Shown here: in pieces, positions 31,479 to 44,173 of the stretch
Numbering within the stretch: the stretch's first letter is position 1
How the letters are laid out: each line of letters opens with the position of its first letter
Assembly: GCA_018883245.1 (NCBI GenBank)
Contig: VEQL01000007.1
Span: 1 to 64,000, forward strand
Source: Chthoniobacterales bacterium
Lineage (GTDB): Bacteria > Verrucomicrobiota > Verrucomicrobiia > Chthoniobacterales > JACTMZ01
Length of the DNA: 64,000 bases
Direction: 5' to 3'
Position numbers and translations under genes: made by a program
The notes under the pieces: model-generated
What the model was told of the DNA's origin: nothing
What the model saw: the letters and a program-made list of their open reading frames with translations, nothing else
Database searches by the model: none

Positions 31479-31535
31479 CGGCACCCTGATTCCTGCGCTT
31501 GCCCCGCATGCCCGGGCGCGGCAATTTCTTTGTCC

Positions 31536-32558
31536 GTGCCCGATCTGACCGACATCGCTTCGCTGCGCGCCGCCGCCCGCGCCGGCCGCACGCGTGCGGT
31601 TCTCCCGGTGCTGGTCGAAACGGTGACCGAGAAGGCGTCGAAGGACGGCAAGCCTTTCCTTGATATCCAACTGGTGGACGCCCGCGACCGCTTCGCGTTG
31701 CGTGTTTGGTCGGACAACGGGCAATACGCTCCGGCACAGGAACTGGCCGCCGGCGCGTGCCTCAAACTCGAGGGTGAATTCACCGTCCACCCGCAGTTCG
31801 GCCTCGAGGCCAAGCGTTGGAGTTTCGCACCGTTAACCGGGGACGCCAAAGAGGAATTCCTCGCCGGCCCGGCAGACCTGCGCTCGAGACAGGAAGAGGA
31901 TTACAAATTCATCGAGTCGTCGGTTTCCTCGATCCGCGACCCGCGGCTCAAGGCTCTCGGCCTGCTGTTTCTGGAAAAATTCGGTCCGCGTTTCCGCCGG
32001 ACGGCCGCTGCGCGCTTCTTTCATCATGCCCGGCGCGGGGGACTCGTCGAACATGTCGCGCAGATGATGCGCTACGCGGATGCGGTGTGCGCGGTGAACC
32101 CGGCGCTCCACCGCGACCTCCTCGTTTCCGGGGTGCTTTTCCACGACTGCGGCAAGCTCTGGGAAAATTGCGTGGAGGAGGGAAGTTTCACCATGCCCTT
32201 CGACGAGCGGGGCGAGTTGCTCGGCCACATCAACATCGGCATCGAGCTGGTCAACACCCTTTGGAAGGCGTTGCCCCTCGAGGATTGGAAAGATCTCGCG
32301 CCTGACAACGAAGACGCGAGGTTGCACCTGCTCCATCTCGTTGCGGCTCACCACGGGGAATTGGAGTTCGGCTCGCCGGTGCAGCCCAAAACGCCGGAGG
32401 CGATCGCGTTGCATTACATCGACAATCTCGACGCCAAGCTCGAGATGCTGGCGCGCGGCTACGAGGGAGGCGGAACGGTGGCCGAGCGGATTTATGACAA
32501 GGTCAAGCCGCTCAATGTGCGGCTGGTGGCCCCGCTCGCCCCGGCGCCCGCGGAATGA
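31536..32558 (+). CDS. YhaM-like OB-fold/HD-domain 3'-5' exonuclease
   Basis: About 340 residues: an N-terminal OB-fold (~1-100) and a C-terminal HD domain (~150-320). HD motifs are His in ARRGGLVEHVAQMM, His-Asp in GVLFHDCGKLWE, the AAHHGE pair and the late Asp in YIDNLDAKLEM. This matches YhaM/CBF1-type exoribonucleases, which process RNA and sometimes DNA 3' ends. Start choice is uncertain: GTG 31536 or TTG 31530 (two residues longer); there is no clear Shine-Dalgarno for either. The stop overlaps the next gene by 4 bases. Confidence 0.85.
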   Translation: MPDLTDIASLRAAARAGRTRAVLPVLVETVTEKASKDGKPFLDIQLVDARDRFALRVWSDNGQYAPAQELAAGACLKLEGEFTVHPQFGLEAKRWSFAPLTGDAKEEFLAGPADLRSRQEEDYKFIESSVSSIRDPRLKALGLLFLEKFGPRFRRTAAARFFHHARRGGLVEHVAQMMRYADAVCAVNPALHRDLLVSGVLFHDCGKLWENCVEEGSFTMPFDERGELLGHINIGIELVNTLWKALPLEDWKDLAPDNEDARLHLLHLVAAHHGELEFGSPVQPKTPEAIALHYIDNLDAKLEMLARGYEGGGTVAERIYDKVKPLNVRLVAPLAPAPAE

Positions 32559-33820
32559 AATTCCTCCGCGCCGCCGCGGCCGTGCTCTGCGGCTTGGCCG
32601 CATGTTCGACGCGGGCCTCGGGATCCGCCGGTGCGGAACAAATGAACGCAGCGCTCGGTCTGCCGATTTTCCCGTCAAACGGCACGATCTGGGAAGAGGA
32701 TGCGAGTGTCGTGGCGCAGAGGCTGGGACTGCGCCCGGAGTCGGAAACGCCCGACGATGCAAACTACCGTCTTTATCCACGGGAAGAAATGCGGGTGCTC
32801 GGACGCCGCCCCTACGCGATCAGCCTTTCGGCGCAAGGTGGAAAAGTCGCGGCCGTGGGCATTGTTTTCGCCAACAAAGGCGACTCCGTCGGGCAGTTTG
32901 CTCCTTCGGCACCCGGCCGCCGCGCGCCGCGCCCCGAACAGATTTTGCGCGACTACCGCAAGGCGATCGCGGAAGACGACCGGGCGCTCGACGAAGCGCT
33001 CGAGGCGCTGGCCGGTCCTGCCGCGCGCGAGAGGACGGGAAGCCCCGGCCAGATGCAGGAGCGTTCGCGCCGTCGCGACTGGAACGGCCATGCACTCCTG
33101 CTGGTCTCCGTGCGCGACGAATATGTCGCACTGCGTATTGTGCCGCCCCGCGATCTCGATGATGCGAATCCCGCCGGACGCACCTCTTCCCGCGATTTGC
33201 GCGAAAAAATGTCCTCGCGCGTGCAGCGGCGGGAAAACGGCGACGTGGTCATCGTCGGCATTCCCATGGTGGATCAAGGGCCGAAGGGATTTTGCGTCCC
33301 CGCGACGATGGAACGCATGCTGCGCCATCTTGGAATCCCGGCCGACATGTATTTGCTAGCCATGGCGGCCAACACGCGACCCGGTGGCGGAACTCTCCTT
33401 GAGGATGTCCTGTTTGCCGTTGGTGACACCATCCGTCGCCATGCGCGGCGTATCATCAACATCTCCGGTGGCCCCGAGCCCTCCGTCGTGGCCAAATGGA
33501 TCGATGCCGGCGTCCCGGTGATGTGGGCTTTGCGCACATCGGAGACGGTCAACGAACGAATCAACGCGCGCATGCGCGCGCGGAGCCAGACGGTCGATTG
33601 GAAAAATTGGTCCGATTCGTTGAAGCAACCCCGCCGTGATGCACGCGCGCTCGCCAAGGAGGCGGCCGAGGGCCACGTATGCCTCATTACCGGCTACAAC
33701 CGCGGGACCGGCGAGATCGCGCTTTCCGATTCCTATGGTCCGGGCTACGAGGAGCGTTGGATCACCGCCGAGGAAGCCGGGGTTCTCTCGCAGGGTGCGA
33801 TGGCTGTGGTTGCATGGTGA
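32555..33820 (+). CDS. Lipoprotein with C39-like cysteine peptidase domain
   Basis: 421 residues: a lipoprotein-like signal (AAC at residues 15-17), an N-terminal domain of unknown type (~25-215), and a C39-like papain-fold domain (~230-421). A candidate triad is visible: Cys247 (KGFCVPATMERML), His374 (GHVCLITGYN) and Asp392 (DSYGP). C39-like domains cleave peptides or bind peptide ligands. It overlaps both neighbours (YhaM-like gene upstream, DUF362 gene downstream), so the four genes from 31.5 to 35.75 kb behave as one unit. The substrate is unknown. Confidence 0.8.
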   Translation: MKFLRAAAAVLCGLAACSTRASGSAGAEQMNAALGLPIFPSNGTIWEEDASVVAQRLGLRPESETPDDANYRLYPREEMRVLGRRPYAISLSAQGGKVAAVGIVFANKGDSVGQFAPSAPGRRAPRPEQILRDYRKAIAEDDRALDEALEALAGPAARERTGSPGQMQERSRRRDWNGHALLLVSVRDEYVALRIVPPRDLDDANPAGRTSSRDLREKMSSRVQRRENGDVVIVGIPMVDQGPKGFCVPATMERMLRHLGIPADMYLLAMAANTRPGGGTLLEDVLFAVGDTIRRHARRIINISGGPEPSVVAKWIDAGVPVMWALRTSETVNERINARMRARSQTVDWKNWSDSLKQPRRDARALAKEAAEGHVCLITGYNRGTGEIALSDSYGPGYEERWITAEEAGVLSQGAMAVVAW

Positions 33821-34830
33821 AAGCATTTCCAGTTTTGGCGTTGCTGTTGGTCGCTGCCACCGGCCGCGCGGCGGACGTTTATGTCGCGCGCAGCGCGGCC
33901 GTTATCGAAAGCGGAAAGGTGCGGTCGGGTGCGGTGGCGCGGATGGTCGACAGCGCGGTGATGGCCGCCACGGGGAAACAGGACATCTCCTCCGCGTGGC
34001 GCTCGCTCGTGCGCCCGACCGATCGTGTCGGCATAAAAATCTCGGCCTCCGGTGCGCCGGTGTCCTCCACGCACGCTGCCGTGGTGTCGGCGGTGGCCGA
34101 GGGTCTGGTGTCCGCGGGCGTGGCGCCGCAACGTATCGTCATTTGGGACCGCAAATGGAGCGACATGAGCCGCACCGGTTACGGTGCGTTATCCCGTCGT
34201 TTTCTCGTCACCTCGACCGATCGCGCCGGCGGCTATTCGGATGACGACGTGGTCACCGCCGCGGTGATGGGACGTCTTATCGACGGTGATCGGGACTTCA
34301 GTCCGGCCCAAGCCGCCGAGGAGCAGACGTCCGGCAAGAGCCACCTTTCGGTCGTCCTGACGCGCGGGGTGGACAAAGTGGTGCATGTTCCCGCGCTGAC
34401 CGACCATCTTTCCTCCGGTCTCAACGGCGCTTTTTCCGGCATGGTGCTCGACAACCTCGACAATTGGCGGCGCTTGGCGCGTCCTCCGCACTACGGCGAT
34501 CCTTATCTTGCCGAGCTTTATTCCGACCCGCGCATCGGCGGCAAAGTTGTGCTCACCATCCTCGACGCTTTGCGTCCGCAATATGCGGGCGGTCCTTTCC
34601 CCGAACCGCAATACGTCGAAAACTACGGCGCGATTTATGTGTCGCGCGACCCCGTGGCCCTGGACACGGTCGCGCTCGATCTGATCGACGGATTCCGCAA
34701 AGGCGCGGGCTTGCCCCTCCTGGCACCGAAGCTGACGTGGCTCGAGTCGGCCGCCACCATCGGTCTCGGCGTGACCGACCGCGCGCGCATCCGCGTGGTG
34801 CCGGTGCAGGGTCCGCCGCCGCAGCCATGA
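33814..34830 (+). CDS. DUF362 family protein with signal peptide
   Basis: 338 residues with a signal peptide (1-~20, cleaved near GRAADV). The body matches DUF362: the DRVGIKIS strand, STHAAVVSAVAEGLVSAGV helix and IVIWDR strand near residues 65-115, and a later GAIYVSRDPVALDTVALDLID segment. DUF362 proteins often occur with iron-sulfur or redox genes, but their function is not established. No cysteine cluster is present here. The ATG at 33814 overlaps the previous stop; GTG 33817 is also possible. The stop overlaps the next start (ATGA at 34827). Confidence 0.82.
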   Translation: MVKAFPVLALLLVAATGRAADVYVARSAAVIESGKVRSGAVARMVDSAVMAATGKQDISSAWRSLVRPTDRVGIKISASGAPVSSTHAAVVSAVAEGLVSAGVAPQRIVIWDRKWSDMSRTGYGALSRRFLVTSTDRAGGYSDDDVVTAAVMGRLIDGDRDFSPAQAAEEQTSGKSHLSVVLTRGVDKVVHVPALTDHLSSGLNGAFSGMVLDNLDNWRRLARPPHYGDPYLAELYSDPRIGGKVVLTILDALRPQYAGGPFPEPQYVENYGAIYVSRDPVALDTVALDLIDGFRKGAGLPLLAPKLTWLESAATIGLGVTDRARIRVVPVQGPPPQP

Positions 34831-35750
34831 ACGAGAAAGAACTCCTCCGCCGCACCGCCCGTTCGTTCGCGCTGACCCTCGGTCTGCTGCCGCAGAGCGC
34901 GCGATCGGAGGCCTCGCTCGCTTATTTGCTGGCGCGAGGAACCGACACCATCGCCGATCAGGCGGATGCGGACTCGGCACAGCGCGCCGGTGCACTGAGG
35001 TCGTTCCTTGCTTCGCTTGGTAGGACTGGGATCGAGGGCTACGACGCAGAGGAGTGGTCCCGTTCCGTTCGTGACGATGCGGCAAGCCGCCTGCTCGCGC
35101 GTATGCCGGAGCTTTGGCGACGCATGCAATCGCTGGAGAATGGCGCGCTTCACCGCGTTCGGACGGTGATCGGCTGCATCCTCGAAGGCCAGATTTTCGA
35201 TGTCGAACGTTTCTTCCCGGATTCACCGCCCCTCGCCGGCGAAGAATTGTCGCGCTACACCTACCTGGTGGCGGGTAGCGCCGGCGAATTCCTCACTGAT
35301 CTCTGCGCGGCGCACCAGCGCGATTTTTCCGCCGATCCGCTCCCTTCGATGCGTGATCGCGCGCGGTCCTACGGCGAGGCGCTGCAACTGGTCAATATCT
35401 TGCGCGACCGTCGCATGGATGCCGCCCTCGGCCGTGTTTATTTGGAAAACCGTGATGTGCCGCGTGCGATGGAGACAGCGCGCACCGGATTGGCGGCGGG
35501 GGGTGACTACTGCGCTGCCCTGCGTTCCGGCCGTTTGCGCTACGCTCTCTTGTTGCCTGCCTTGCTGGGGCTCCGGACGCTTGCCTTGCTGGGGGACCGC
35601 GGCGATGACACGCTGGCGCCGCGCAAAGTTCCGCGCCGCGAAGTGAGGCAATGGCTCTTGCGCGCTTTGCCCGTGTGGTTTTCCCCGGGACGGGTGCGCG
35701 GTCTGGTTGCGCGTGCGGCCGGCGCGGATGTCACAGCACAACAAGAATGA
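34827..35750 (+). CDS. Squalene/phytoene synthase-like prenyltransferase
   Basis: 307 residues of the squalene/phytoene synthase fold. The first Asp motif is DTIAD (Asp40 and Asp44) and the second is in QLVNILRDRRMDA (Asp194 and Asp198), so metal-binding acids are present at both sites although the second motif departs from the usual DxxED. It could join two prenyl diphosphates head-to-head. No desaturase or hopene cyclase gene lies nearby, so the product cannot be predicted. It is the last of four overlapping genes, and its 3' end overlaps the convergent transporter gene by 20 bases. Confidence 0.82.
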   Translation: MNEKELLRRTARSFALTLGLLPQSARSEASLAYLLARGTDTIADQADADSAQRAGALRSFLASLGRTGIEGYDAEEWSRSVRDDAASRLLARMPELWRRMQSLENGALHRVRTVIGCILEGQIFDVERFFPDSPPLAGEELSRYTYLVAGSAGEFLTDLCAAHQRDFSADPLPSMRDRARSYGEALQLVNILRDRRMDAALGRVYLENRDVPRAMETARTGLAAGGDYCAALRSGRLRYALLLPALLGLRTLALLGDRGDDTLAPRKVPRREVRQWLLRALPVWFSPGRVRGLVARAAGADVTAQQE

Positions 35751-40445: not shown

Positions 40446-42713
40446 TCAAATCAATCTCACGCCGCCGTTCCCCGCGGTCACGCGTCCGATGGCGAACACG
40501 GGTTCCCCGATGGCCGCGCGCACGGCTGATTCGTCGGCCGGGTCGCAAACCATGACCATGCCGATGCCCATGTTGAACGTGCGGAAAAGTTCCGTGTCGG
40601 ACAAGCCGCTCGCCTCGCGGATGAGGGCGAAGAGCGGCGGAACCGGCCAACTTTTGCTTTCGATGTCGGCGCCGGTTCCTTTGGGGAGGACGCGGGGAAG
40701 ATTGTCGAAGATGCCTCCGCCCGTGATATGCGCGAGTCCCTTGATCAGCTTTTTGTCCAGTGCCGCGCGCAGCACGTTGAGATACGAGCGGTGAGGGGCG
40801 AGCAGCGCCTCGCCGATGGTCCTTTCCAATCCCGCCGGCGTGGCGTCAAGGGGAAGGCCGCGGAAGATTTTCCGCGCGAGCGAATATCCGTTGGTGTGCG
40901 GACCCGAGGAGGCCAGCCCGAGCAGGACGTCTCCGGGCGCGATGCCGGGACGGGGAAGAAGATCGGATTTCTCGACCGCCCCCACCATGGTTCCGGCCAC
41001 GTCGAATTCGCCCAGGCAATAAACCCCGGGCATCTCGGCCGTTTCTCCCCCGAGCAAAATGCACCCCGATGCGGCACAGGCATCGGCCATGCCGCCGACG
41101 ATCTCCGCAATGCGCGGCGCGGAAATGGCGGACGACGCGATGTAATCGAGGAAGAACAACGGTCTCGCACCCTGCACGAGGAGATCGTTGATGCAGTGGT
41201 TGACGATGTCGTGCCCGATCGAATCGTAGCGTCCGGCGGCCGACGCGAGCATCACCTTGGTCCCCACTCCGTCGGTCGTGGCGACCAGAACGGGATGATC
41301 GAATTTTTTCAACGCCGATGCATCGAGGGCCCCGCCGAAAGAACCGATGCCGCCGAGGACTCCGGACGAATGCGTGGCCTCCACCTTTTTCTTGAGCAGT
41401 TCCACCGCGCGGTTGCCTTCGTCGATATCGACCCCGCTGGCCGCGTAGCCGCCGGTCGCCCGGGCCAATTCGCGCCATCCGATATCGCGGCGCATTTGGC
41501 GTCCCTCGAATTCTATCATCCGCGCTGCCCGGTAAGACCGCTCCCTCGCTTCCTCGAGATTTTTTCCGGTCGCCGTGACGTTGAGCACGCGTCCACCCGA
41601 GGTGACGATGGCGCCGTTTTTGTCGGCAGTCCCGGCGTGGAAAATCCGCACGTCCCCGACCTCTGCGGCACGGTCGAGTCCGGCAATCGTGTCACCGACG
41701 ACCGGTTTTTCCGGATAGCCCCGCGCAGCCAGCACCACGGTGCACGCGGTCTGGTCTCGCCAACGGACCGGGGTCTCGGCCAGTTTGCCCCCGACGCATG
41801 CCAGCGCGATTTCGCGCAGGTCGGTATCCAGCAAAGACAAAAGAGTCTGCGCCTCGGGGTCGCCGAACCGGCAGTTGTATTCCAGAAGTTTCGGGCCGTC
41901 TTTCGTCATCATCAGACCGGCATAGAGAACGCCGACATACGGCGTGCCTTCGCGGGCCAGGCCGTCGATTGTCGGACGGACAATCGTCTCGAGGATTTGC
42001 TTCACCATCGCGGGCGGGCAGATCCTCGTCGGTGCATACACTCCCATGCCTCCGGTATTGGGACCGCTGTCTCCCTCCCCGATGCGTTTGTGATCCTGCG
42101 CCGGAGGCATCGCCACTACCGAGCGCCCGTCGGTGAAAACGAGGAGCGAAACCTCGGGGCCGGAAAGCTTTTCTTCCAGCACGATTGGCCCGGATTTGGC
42201 CAGCCGCTCGATGGCACTGTCGCGCTCGGCGGCATTTTCCGGGACGACCACGCCTTTGCCCGAGGCCAGACCGTCGGCTTTCACCACAACCTCGAAGTCC
42301 TGCGCGGCCGCCCATGTTTTTGCTTCCTCTGCCGCACCGGGGCCGGAAAAATTCGCGCTGCGCGGCGAGGGGAGTCCGAGCTTTTTGGCGAACTCGCGGC
42401 AAAAACCTTTGCTTGTCTCGAGGCGTGCTGCGGCGCGCGAAGGCCCGAAAACTTTCAGTCCGGCACCGCGCAGCGCGTCGGAGACACCCGCTTCCAGCGC
42501 GCTTTCGGGTCCGACGAGGACGAGGTCGATTTTCTCGGCGGCGCACAAAGCCGTCACTTGTGCCGGGTCGCAGACATCGACTTGGCGGCGTGCGCGTGTT
42601 CCGCCGTTGCCGGGCGCAACGAGCACGGTGTCGCCGTAACGGGCGGCGCTTTGTTCCAGCGCCCAGGCCATCGCGTGTTCCCTTCCGCCGGAACCGAGGA
42701 CCAGGATCTTCAC
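40446..42713 (-). CDS. purDM: PurD-PurM fusion: GAR synthetase/AIR synthetase
   Basis: 755 residues. Residues 1-~415 are a complete PurD (GSGGREHAMAWAL, ATP-grasp segments VVVKADGLASGKGVV and EYNCRFGDPEAQ). Residues ~420-755 are a complete PurM (YAASGVDIDEGN, TTDGVGTKVML, GGETAEMPGVY, HITGGGIFDNLPR). The frame is continuous, with no stop between the domains. The fused enzyme would carry out the second and fifth steps of purine synthesis. The same PurD-PurM order occurs in yeast ADE5,7 and animal GART. The GTG start at 42713 forms a GTGA overlap with purF. Confidence 0.95.
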   Translation of the reverse strand: MKILVLGSGGREHAMAWALEQSAARYGDTVLVAPGNGGTRARRQVDVCDPAQVTALCAAEKIDLVLVGPESALEAGVSDALRGAGLKVFGPSRAAARLETSKGFCREFAKKLGLPSPRSANFSGPGAAEEAKTWAAAQDFEVVVKADGLASGKGVVVPENAAERDSAIERLAKSGPIVLEEKLSGPEVSLLVFTDGRSVVAMPPAQDHKRIGEGDSGPNTGGMGVYAPTRICPPAMVKQILETIVRPTIDGLAREGTPYVGVLYAGLMMTKDGPKLLEYNCRFGDPEAQTLLSLLDTDLREIALACVGGKLAETPVRWRDQTACTVVLAARGYPEKPVVGDTIAGLDRAAEVGDVRIFHAGTADKNGAIVTSGGRVLNVTATGKNLEEARERSYRAARMIEFEGRQMRRDIGWRELARATGGYAASGVDIDEGNRAVELLKKKVEATHSSGVLGGIGSFGGALDASALKKFDHPVLVATTDGVGTKVMLASAAGRYDSIGHDIVNHCINDLLVQGARPLFFLDYIASSAISAPRIAEIVGGMADACAASGCILLGGETAEMPGVYCLGEFDVAGTMVGAVEKSDLLPRPGIAPGDVLLGLASSGPHTNGYSLARKIFRGLPLDATPAGLERTIGEALLAPHRSYLNVLRAALDKKLIKGLAHITGGGIFDNLPRVLPKGTGADIESKSWPVPPLFALIREASGLSDTELFRTFNMGIGMVMVCDPADESAVRAAIGEPVFAIGRVTAGNGGVRLI

Positions 42714-44173
42714 GCGAGCACTCCTTCGAAGGATGTTTTTTCGGTCACGCGCGAGACATCCACCGGGTAGCGGCCGGTGAAGCATGCTGTGCAGTAACCC
42801 GACTTTTTGCCGATGGCCGCCATCATCCCCTCGACGGAAAGGAATGCGAGCGAGTCGCAGCCGACATGGCGCCGCAGTTCCTCGGGATCGAACCGCGCGG
42901 CGATGAGTTCCTCGTAGGTTCCCATGTCCACACCCATGTGGCACGGGTGCATGACGCGCGGCGAAGTGATGCGCATATGGACCTCTTTGGCCCCCGCCTC
43001 GCGCATCAGTTTGACCAGCTGCGCGGAGGTCGTGCCGCGCACGAGGGAGTCGTCGATCACGATCACGCGTTTGCCCGCGATGTTGGCCTTCAAAACATTG
43101 AATTTCATCCCGACCCTGCGCTCCCGCAGCGATTGCGTCGGCTCGATGAATGTCCGGCCGACGTAGCGGTTCTTGATGAATCCGTCGTTGAATGGAACAC
43201 CCGATTTGCGCGAGTAGCCTATGGCGGCGGGGATGGAAGAGTCGGGGACGGGGACGACCACATCGGCCTCGACGGGCGACTCCACGGCGAGTTGCTCGCC
43301 CAGACGCTGGCGAACCTCGTGCACACTGCGCCCGTCCCATTCGCTGTCGGGACGGGAAAAATAGACGAATTCAAACGAGCAACGCGCCCCGCCGCCCGGC
43401 GCGACAGCCGTCCGGCGCCTGGAGATCTTTTTGCCGCGGATGGTGATGATTTCTCCCGGTTTCACTTCGGCGATCTGGTCGCAGCCGAGGATGTTGAGCG
43501 CGCAGGTCTCGGATGCGAGGGCCCATCCGCCTTCGGGCGTGCGTCCGACAGAAAGCGGGCGGAATCCCCACGGGTCGCGCGCAGCGACGACGGAATCGAC
43601 GCCCAGCACGACGAGCGAGTAGGCGCCTTTCCACGAGGGCATGGTGCGCTCGAGGCGGTCCTCCCATGTGTTGCCGCTGGCGGAGGCGAGCATGAGCGCC
43701 ATGACCTCCGTGTCACTCGCCGCGGTGAGGGCGAATCCCCTGCTCAGAAGTTGCGACCGCAGTTCTCCCGCGTTGACCAGCGAACCGTTGTGCGCGACAG
43801 CCAGGGGGCCGTGCATGGTCTCGACGAGAAACGGTTGGGCGTTGCGAGCGGTGGACGAGCCGAGCGTCGAATAGCGTGTGTGCCCGATGGCATGGTAGCC
43901 CCGAAGGGGCGCGAGGGTTTCGGGTGTGAACACGTTGGAAAGCAAACCGAGGTCCTTGTGCAGGCGTGCGCGCTGCCCGTCGGACACCGCGATGCCTGCC
44001 GCCTCCTGCCCGCGGTGCTGCAGGGCGAAAAGCCCGAAAAAAGCGAGTTGGGCCGCCTGTTCCCCGCTGGGTGAGGAGACCGCCACCACGCCGCATTCCT
44101 CGCGGGGATGGTCGCAGTCGCGTGTGAGGGACACGGGGTCCGCGGTTCCTTCGGTTCGTGTTGGAGTGTTCAC
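42710..44173 (-). CDS. purF: Amidophosphoribosyltransferase PurF
   Basis: 487 residues. The nucleophilic Cys27 (EECGVVAV) follows a 26-residue leader that should be cleaved off. Glutaminase motifs include FALQHRGQEAAGI and AHNGSLVNA; the phosphoribosyltransferase motif is VIVIDDSLVRGTTSAQL. Cysteines near the C-terminus (HPCHMGVDM, CTACF) fit a 4Fe-4S type enzyme. It catalyses the first committed step of purine synthesis. The GTG at 44173 overlaps the purC stop as GTGA. Confidence 0.96.
   Translation of the reverse strand: MNTPTRTEGTADPVSLTRDCDHPREECGVVAVSSPSGEQAAQLAFFGLFALQHRGQEAAGIAVSDGQRARLHKDLGLLSNVFTPETLAPLRGYHAIGHTRYSTLGSSTARNAQPFLVETMHGPLAVAHNGSLVNAGELRSQLLSRGFALTAASDTEVMALMLASASGNTWEDRLERTMPSWKGAYSLVVLGVDSVVAARDPWGFRPLSVGRTPEGGWALASETCALNILGCDQIAEVKPGEIITIRGKKISRRRTAVAPGGGARCSFEFVYFSRPDSEWDGRSVHEVRQRLGEQLAVESPVEADVVVPVPDSSIPAAIGYSRKSGVPFNDGFIKNRYVGRTFIEPTQSLRERRVGMKFNVLKANIAGKRVIVIDDSLVRGTTSAQLVKLMREAGAKEVHMRITSPRVMHPCHMGVDMGTYEELIAARFDPEELRRHVGCDSLAFLSVEGMMAAIGKKSGYCTACFTGRYPVDVSRVTEKTSFEGVLA

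Follow-up and report, generated by a model that had tools for sequence, protein, structure and literature searches.

The question raised by this locus is whether four genes that overlap one another, and that an earlier note had put forward as a candidate functional unit, belong together. All four lie on the forward (+) strand of the window, the whole 64,000-nucleotide stretch of DNA that was analysed. The first (31536..32558) encodes a YhaM-like OB/HD-domain nuclease; its open reading frame (ORF) starts with GTG at 31536, TTG at 31530 being an alternative. It is followed by a gene for a C39-like protein predicted to be exported (32555..33820), a DUF362 gene whose product is predicted to be exported and to have a LarA fold (33814..34830), and a gene of the squalene-synthase type, SQS_PSY (34827..35750). 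The YhaM-like/C39-like and DUF362/synthase junctions are both 4-base overlaps, ATGA, and the C39-like/DUF362 junction overlaps by 7 bases counted from the ATG at 33814, or by 4 bases if the GTG at 33817 is used. The place, strand and overlaps of the four ORFs were thereby confirmed, and because homologous proteins were found in other genomes for all four, the ORFs were taken to be genes. Above their cut-offs, the family scans gave 32.5 bits for the HD domain (PF01966; cut-off 22), 40.0 bits for DUF362 (PF04015; gathering cut-off 24) and 103.2 bits for SQS_PSY (PF00494; gathering cut-off 26). Gene overlap is frequent in bacterial operons and is little proof by itself. A pattern scan for transcription signals was uninformative: it returned one promoter-like site (1.6 expected) and 13 terminator-like sites (9.1 expected, sd 3.0).

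Protein searches were carried out in 57 genomes of the order, comprising 11 of the genus (own genome included) and 46 from the rest of the order (12 other families). The synthase was found in 55 of these genomes, the YhaM-like gene in 53 and DUF362 in 46; matches to the C39-like protein were obtained in 30, many of them short and weak. DUF362 and the synthase were both present in 45 genomes, the synthase was present with DUF362 undetected in nine, DUF362 was found alone in one, and neither was found in G009 (65% complete) and G052. A comparison of coordinates placed DUF362 immediately upstream of and co-directional with the synthase, at a spacing of 350 nt or less, in 37 of the 57 genomes. The spacing is 391-698 nt in three further genomes (family f4) and 1089 nt in G055, and the two genes are separated in four genomes (G016, G026, G033 and G034). 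Identities of DUF362 and the synthase outside the genus are about 33-48%, so the linkage is old. Within the genus, the YhaM-like gene precedes DUF362 in all 10 genomes with the pair. In seven of these the C39-like gene is interposed; it is on another contig in G006 and G007 and was not found in G004. Among the order genomes compared, YhaM directly before DUF362 occurs in the genus only.

As a control for linkage, homologs of 15 window genes were sought at 35 DUF362 loci from 10 families outside the own family (36 DUF362-bearing genomes, from which G050, with a 3.8-kb contig, was omitted). DUF362 itself was recovered at 35 loci, the synthase at 31, UppS at six, PurD/M at two, and YhaM and PstB at one each; in the window, a single long ORF at 40446-43340 presumably represents a PurD-PurM fusion, by its resemblance. 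TilS, SerS, DnaJ, the S8 protease, the C39-like protein, EamA, PstS, PstC and PstA were found at none of the 35. The 13 other window genes thus scored 0-6 of 35 each, against 31 for the synthase, and outside the own family the local gene order is nearly wholly replaced except for the DUF362-synthase pair. DUF362 and the synthase form a real, old and order-wide gene pair. Of the expectation that something in this cluster is kept together, the part that stood concerns the last two genes, in 10 families, and not the four. For the C39-DUF362-synthase trio, whose neighbourhood the earlier note had proposed for analysis, the linkage of DUF362 to the synthase was upheld and that of C39 was not: the trio is not conserved, with C39 in seven of 10 genus loci and absent outside the family.

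For the synthase, alignment A1 was built from 23 of 30 synthase loci and the window protein; L003, which is the window itself, and L009, L016, L017, L023, L029 and L030, which have an internal stop or are broken, were omitted. Both DxxxD motifs (D40/D44 and D194/D198) are invariant in all 24 sequences, set in a well-conserved QLvNILRD...D...GR block. Following comparison of the A1 profile with the PDB, eukaryotic squalene synthases were the best match (93.8 bits over 3-274 of 279), ahead of phytoene synthase (72.4 bits), the dehydrosqualene synthase CrtM (59.5 bits) and HpnC (23 bits). Single-sequence NCBIfam scores lie far below every equivalog cut-off, with HpnD the best (48.3 bits, cut-off 278.6) and 41.2 bits for squalene synthase (TIGR01559; cut-off 286.75). 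Since this last cut-off was missed, the protein is named squalene-synthase-type and not squalene synthase. It has both DxxxD motifs in common with squalene synthase (SQS/FDFT1; PF00494, TIGR01559), and the profile match covers nearly the whole length, but it falls below the NCBIfam cut-off and its C-terminal part has diverged, the Pfam match ending at position 172 of 263. By these comparisons it is a synthase of the squalene-synthase type with intact motifs, and its product would most likely be squalene. The reading as a lipid-type synthase made in the earlier note therefore holds, narrowed to the squalene-synthase type by the PDB profile comparison.

The HpnC/HpnD route (TIGR03464, TIGR03465) belongs to the same superfamily, and the own genome carries a second, HpnD-like gene; the PDB comparison, however, places the window family nearer to squalene synthase than to HpnC, and no HpnE above cut-off was found in the 57 genomes. 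This second SQS_PSY gene (G000:C19:18694-19437; 225.7 bits for HpnD, cut-off 278.6) lies near apparent arginine-synthesis and ABC-transporter genes, which were named by eye. Weak HpnE matches were discarded as a test, because the same search also matches 14 of 14 control genomes and such matches carry no weight.

Thirty of the 57 genomes have squalene-hopene cyclase, none of them among the 11 of the genus, so the end product in the genus is probably squalene or something unknown. In family f9, six genomes (G018, G028, G036, G044, G051 and G056) have the cyclase and exactly two SQS_PSY proteins each; given the lack of HpnE above cut-off, squalene should be made single-handedly by one of these two. 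A squalene synthase gene is reported from neutrophilic Verrucomicrobia, in most of which the pathway ends with squalene (PMC9543262). For Akkermansia muciniphila, KEGG names AMUC_RS02040 as a squalene synthase, and the bile tolerance of this species is reduced by zaragozic acid A, which inhibits squalene synthase (PMC7671984). AMUC_RS02040 would be the same gene as the synthase type studied here. An enzyme of the squalene-synthase kind in Verrucomicrobia is not new, being already in print, and the surprise is limited accordingly. The finding raises the question of squalene's role in bacteria without a hopanoid cyclase.

The DUF362 protein was aligned (A2) from 28 of 30 DUF362 loci and the window protein, omitting L040, which is the window, and L041, which has an internal stop; all 29 members match PF04015 at E<=0.01. 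A hydrophobic, signal-like segment at the N-terminus (approximately residues 1-20, 33814..33873, +) was found by simple hydropathy in 32 of 33 DUF362 orthologs, against 0 of 22 synthases, and the protein is accordingly predicted to be exported. For this count, 33 of the 35 DUF362 loci were used, as L117 and L144 begin inside the gene; on the synthase side, two of the 22 had no start codon found and no value was computed for them. The structure of the DUF362 protein was predicted from seven sequences with modest confidence (pLDDT 60.3, pTM 0.71). In a structure search with this model, matches 1-7 were of the LarA-superfamily type (Z 9.1-11.6, the next being 5.8); in the first structure comparison, the malate racemase Mar2 had ranked fourth (E 0.013). 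A profile search of the PDB with DUF362 gave nothing. The LarA-like fold of the model agrees with the Pfam clan CL0471, which DUF362 and LarA/DUF2088 share according to a published account (PMC11770544).

The window protein scores above the DUF362 cut-off and has a predicted LarA-like fold, but it is probably no LarA-type racemase. It differs from such racemases in its predicted export, and no histidine is present among the invariant or nearly invariant columns of the 29 sequences. In a search for LarC (PF01969), 32 of the 57 genomes were positive, but the 11 of the genus and the six of f9 all came out negative. As a conserved histidine is absent from the family and LarC from the genus, the modelled LarA-like fold probably carries no nickel-pincer racemase chemistry. 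A literature search on the term DUF362 returned no function for it in the text covered.

Many of the 35 loci outside the own family carry, next to the pair, a gene that the genus lacks at this position. A divergent hemW directly adjoins DUF362 at 23 of the 35 loci (L114-L148) in six families, for example at L137:2944-4020, and the menaquinone genes mqnE-mqnA lie beyond hemW at seven of the 35; the names hemW and mqnE-mqnA come from scanning one representative against NCBIfam and Pfam. In the own genome, hemW is on a separate contig, C50, and not at the DUF362 locus. In G119 and G017, hemW adjoins a synthase without DUF362, the order in G017 being mqnE, mqnA, hemW, synthase, with no DUF362 between the last two.

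We favour, with a probability of about 0.55, an old two-gene operon of DUF362 and the squalene-synthase-type gene, to which YhaM and C39 were added upstream, with squalene as product and a shared envelope process. The main rival is that a promoter is all that DUF362 and the synthase have in common: DUF362 would be an older, class-wide envelope protein with an unrelated job, behind which the synthase was placed on a single occasion, in the order's ancestor. DUF362 does exist apart from the synthase, as it stands beside other genes outside the order: homologs from other orders of the class (L163-L187, n=25), which share about 25-34% identity with the window protein, are accompanied by dnaG in 16, nuoA in 13 and mazG in seven cases, and none of five f16/f19 loci taken with wide flanks had a synthase near DUF362. 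The converse also occurs. When 288 genomes of the phylum were scanned, strong full-length relatives of the synthase were found outside the order in families f15 and f18, with weak DUF362 matches or none, and the single-contig 0.9-Mb genomes G017 and G027 keep the synthase with no DUF362 match. These distributions make the shared-promoter explanation a possible one, though we doubt it, since the pair survives in 10 families outside its own while nearly all other neighbours have been replaced; under inertia alone, its rate of loss should have been similar to theirs.

The other alternatives concern the product of the synthase and the extent of the unit. A carotenoid precursor, phytoene or dehydrosqualene, might be made instead of squalene by a member of this superfamily, and weak matches to the NCBIfam CrtB model occur in 24 of 24 members; in some members of the genus, moreover, the extra SQS_PSY gene lies near a frame with a short desaturase-like HpnE match. 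This is unlikely, as in the PDB profile comparison squalene synthases lead phytoene synthase by 21 bits and CrtM by 34 bits, and clustering of the neighbours, some of which are unnamed, revealed no widely shared desaturase beside the pair. Mitochondrial NDUFAF6 is SQS-like but non-catalytic and helps to assemble respiratory complexes; a similar role for the synthase would suit the respiration genes nearby (hemW and mqnE-mqnA at the loci above, and nuoA beside DUF362 homologs). The catalytic aspartates are invariant, however, which would be needless in a non-enzymatic protein, and we consider this role very improbable. That all four genes are one new functional unit is the least credible of the readings and is largely contradicted: the overlaps are tight in the window locus and in near relatives also, but outside the family YhaM was found at one and C39 at none of the 35 DUF362 loci, and C39 is missing at three of 10 loci in the genus itself. 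The four-gene set was rejected on these counts. The earlier note had named a lack of joint conservation beyond near relatives as what would refute it, and this was the outcome for the four and for the trio, but not for the last two genes; a role of the set in modifying an envelope lipid or peptide, raised in that note, would be speculative.

In the favoured two-gene operon, YhaM would have been added upstream of DUF362 and the synthase, joined there by the C39-like gene in most species of the genus. The four genes of the window are probably co-transcribed, the kept unit being the last two only. The synthase would act in the cytoplasm as a head-to-head prenyl synthase joining two farnesyl diphosphates, most likely through to squalene, and without a squalene-hopene cyclase in the genus this squalene may remain in the membrane or feed an unknown product. 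Functional coupling of DUF362 and the synthase is likely, judging from their linkage, and that linkage hints that the DUF362 protein might act in the envelope, serving a lipid or membrane process common to both. Because DUF362 is kept across the class beside the squalene synthase, hemW, mqnE-mqnA or nuoA, it could further be imagined as an envelope factor that works for membrane isoprenoids or respiration without the nickel-pincer cofactor and forms, with the synthase, one undescribed membrane-maintenance system of the Verrucomicrobiota; this extension is speculative and we hold it to be improbable. In place of the four-gene guess there is now a unit of two genes that is open to test, with a clue to each protein, and DUF362 gains a well-supported partner in the genome as well as a predicted LarA-like fold.

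The two upstream genes were characterized separately. The YhaM-like protein resembles the YhaM 3'-5' exoribonuclease (NF010007) in a match over residues 25-320 and in its HD domain, but with 127.1 bits it misses the equivalog cut-off of 460. Its gene is an ordinary neighbour outside the conserved pair. The C39-like protein scored 21.2 bits with Peptidase_C39_2 (PF13529), below the cut-off of 24, and 17 of 18 orthologs match this family at E<=0.01. The corresponding alignment (A5) omits L070, which is the window, L073, which is close to L072 and L074, and the partial matches L089-L099. The catalytic set of C39-like peptidases is Gln/Cys/His; among the 18 orthologs, Q241 and H374 are invariant and C247 is present in 17, with Ser in one. 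The predicted model was poor (pLDDT 46.6, pTM 0.40) and was set aside, and a PDB profile search gave unrelated matches only (E >=0.4). The lipoprotein label given to this protein in the earlier note is weak, as the lipobox-like Cys is not kept among the 18 orthologs.

The ortholog with Ser in place of the conserved Cys is L076, from G008, and in that species the C39-like protein is therefore probably no active cysteine peptidase. In the genus, where C39 stands next to DUF362, no larC match was found; the C39-like gene is divergent from and adjoins larC (PF01969) in six genomes, all outside the genus (G019:C55, G026:C23, G029:C88, G033:C38, G037:C38 and G045:C29).
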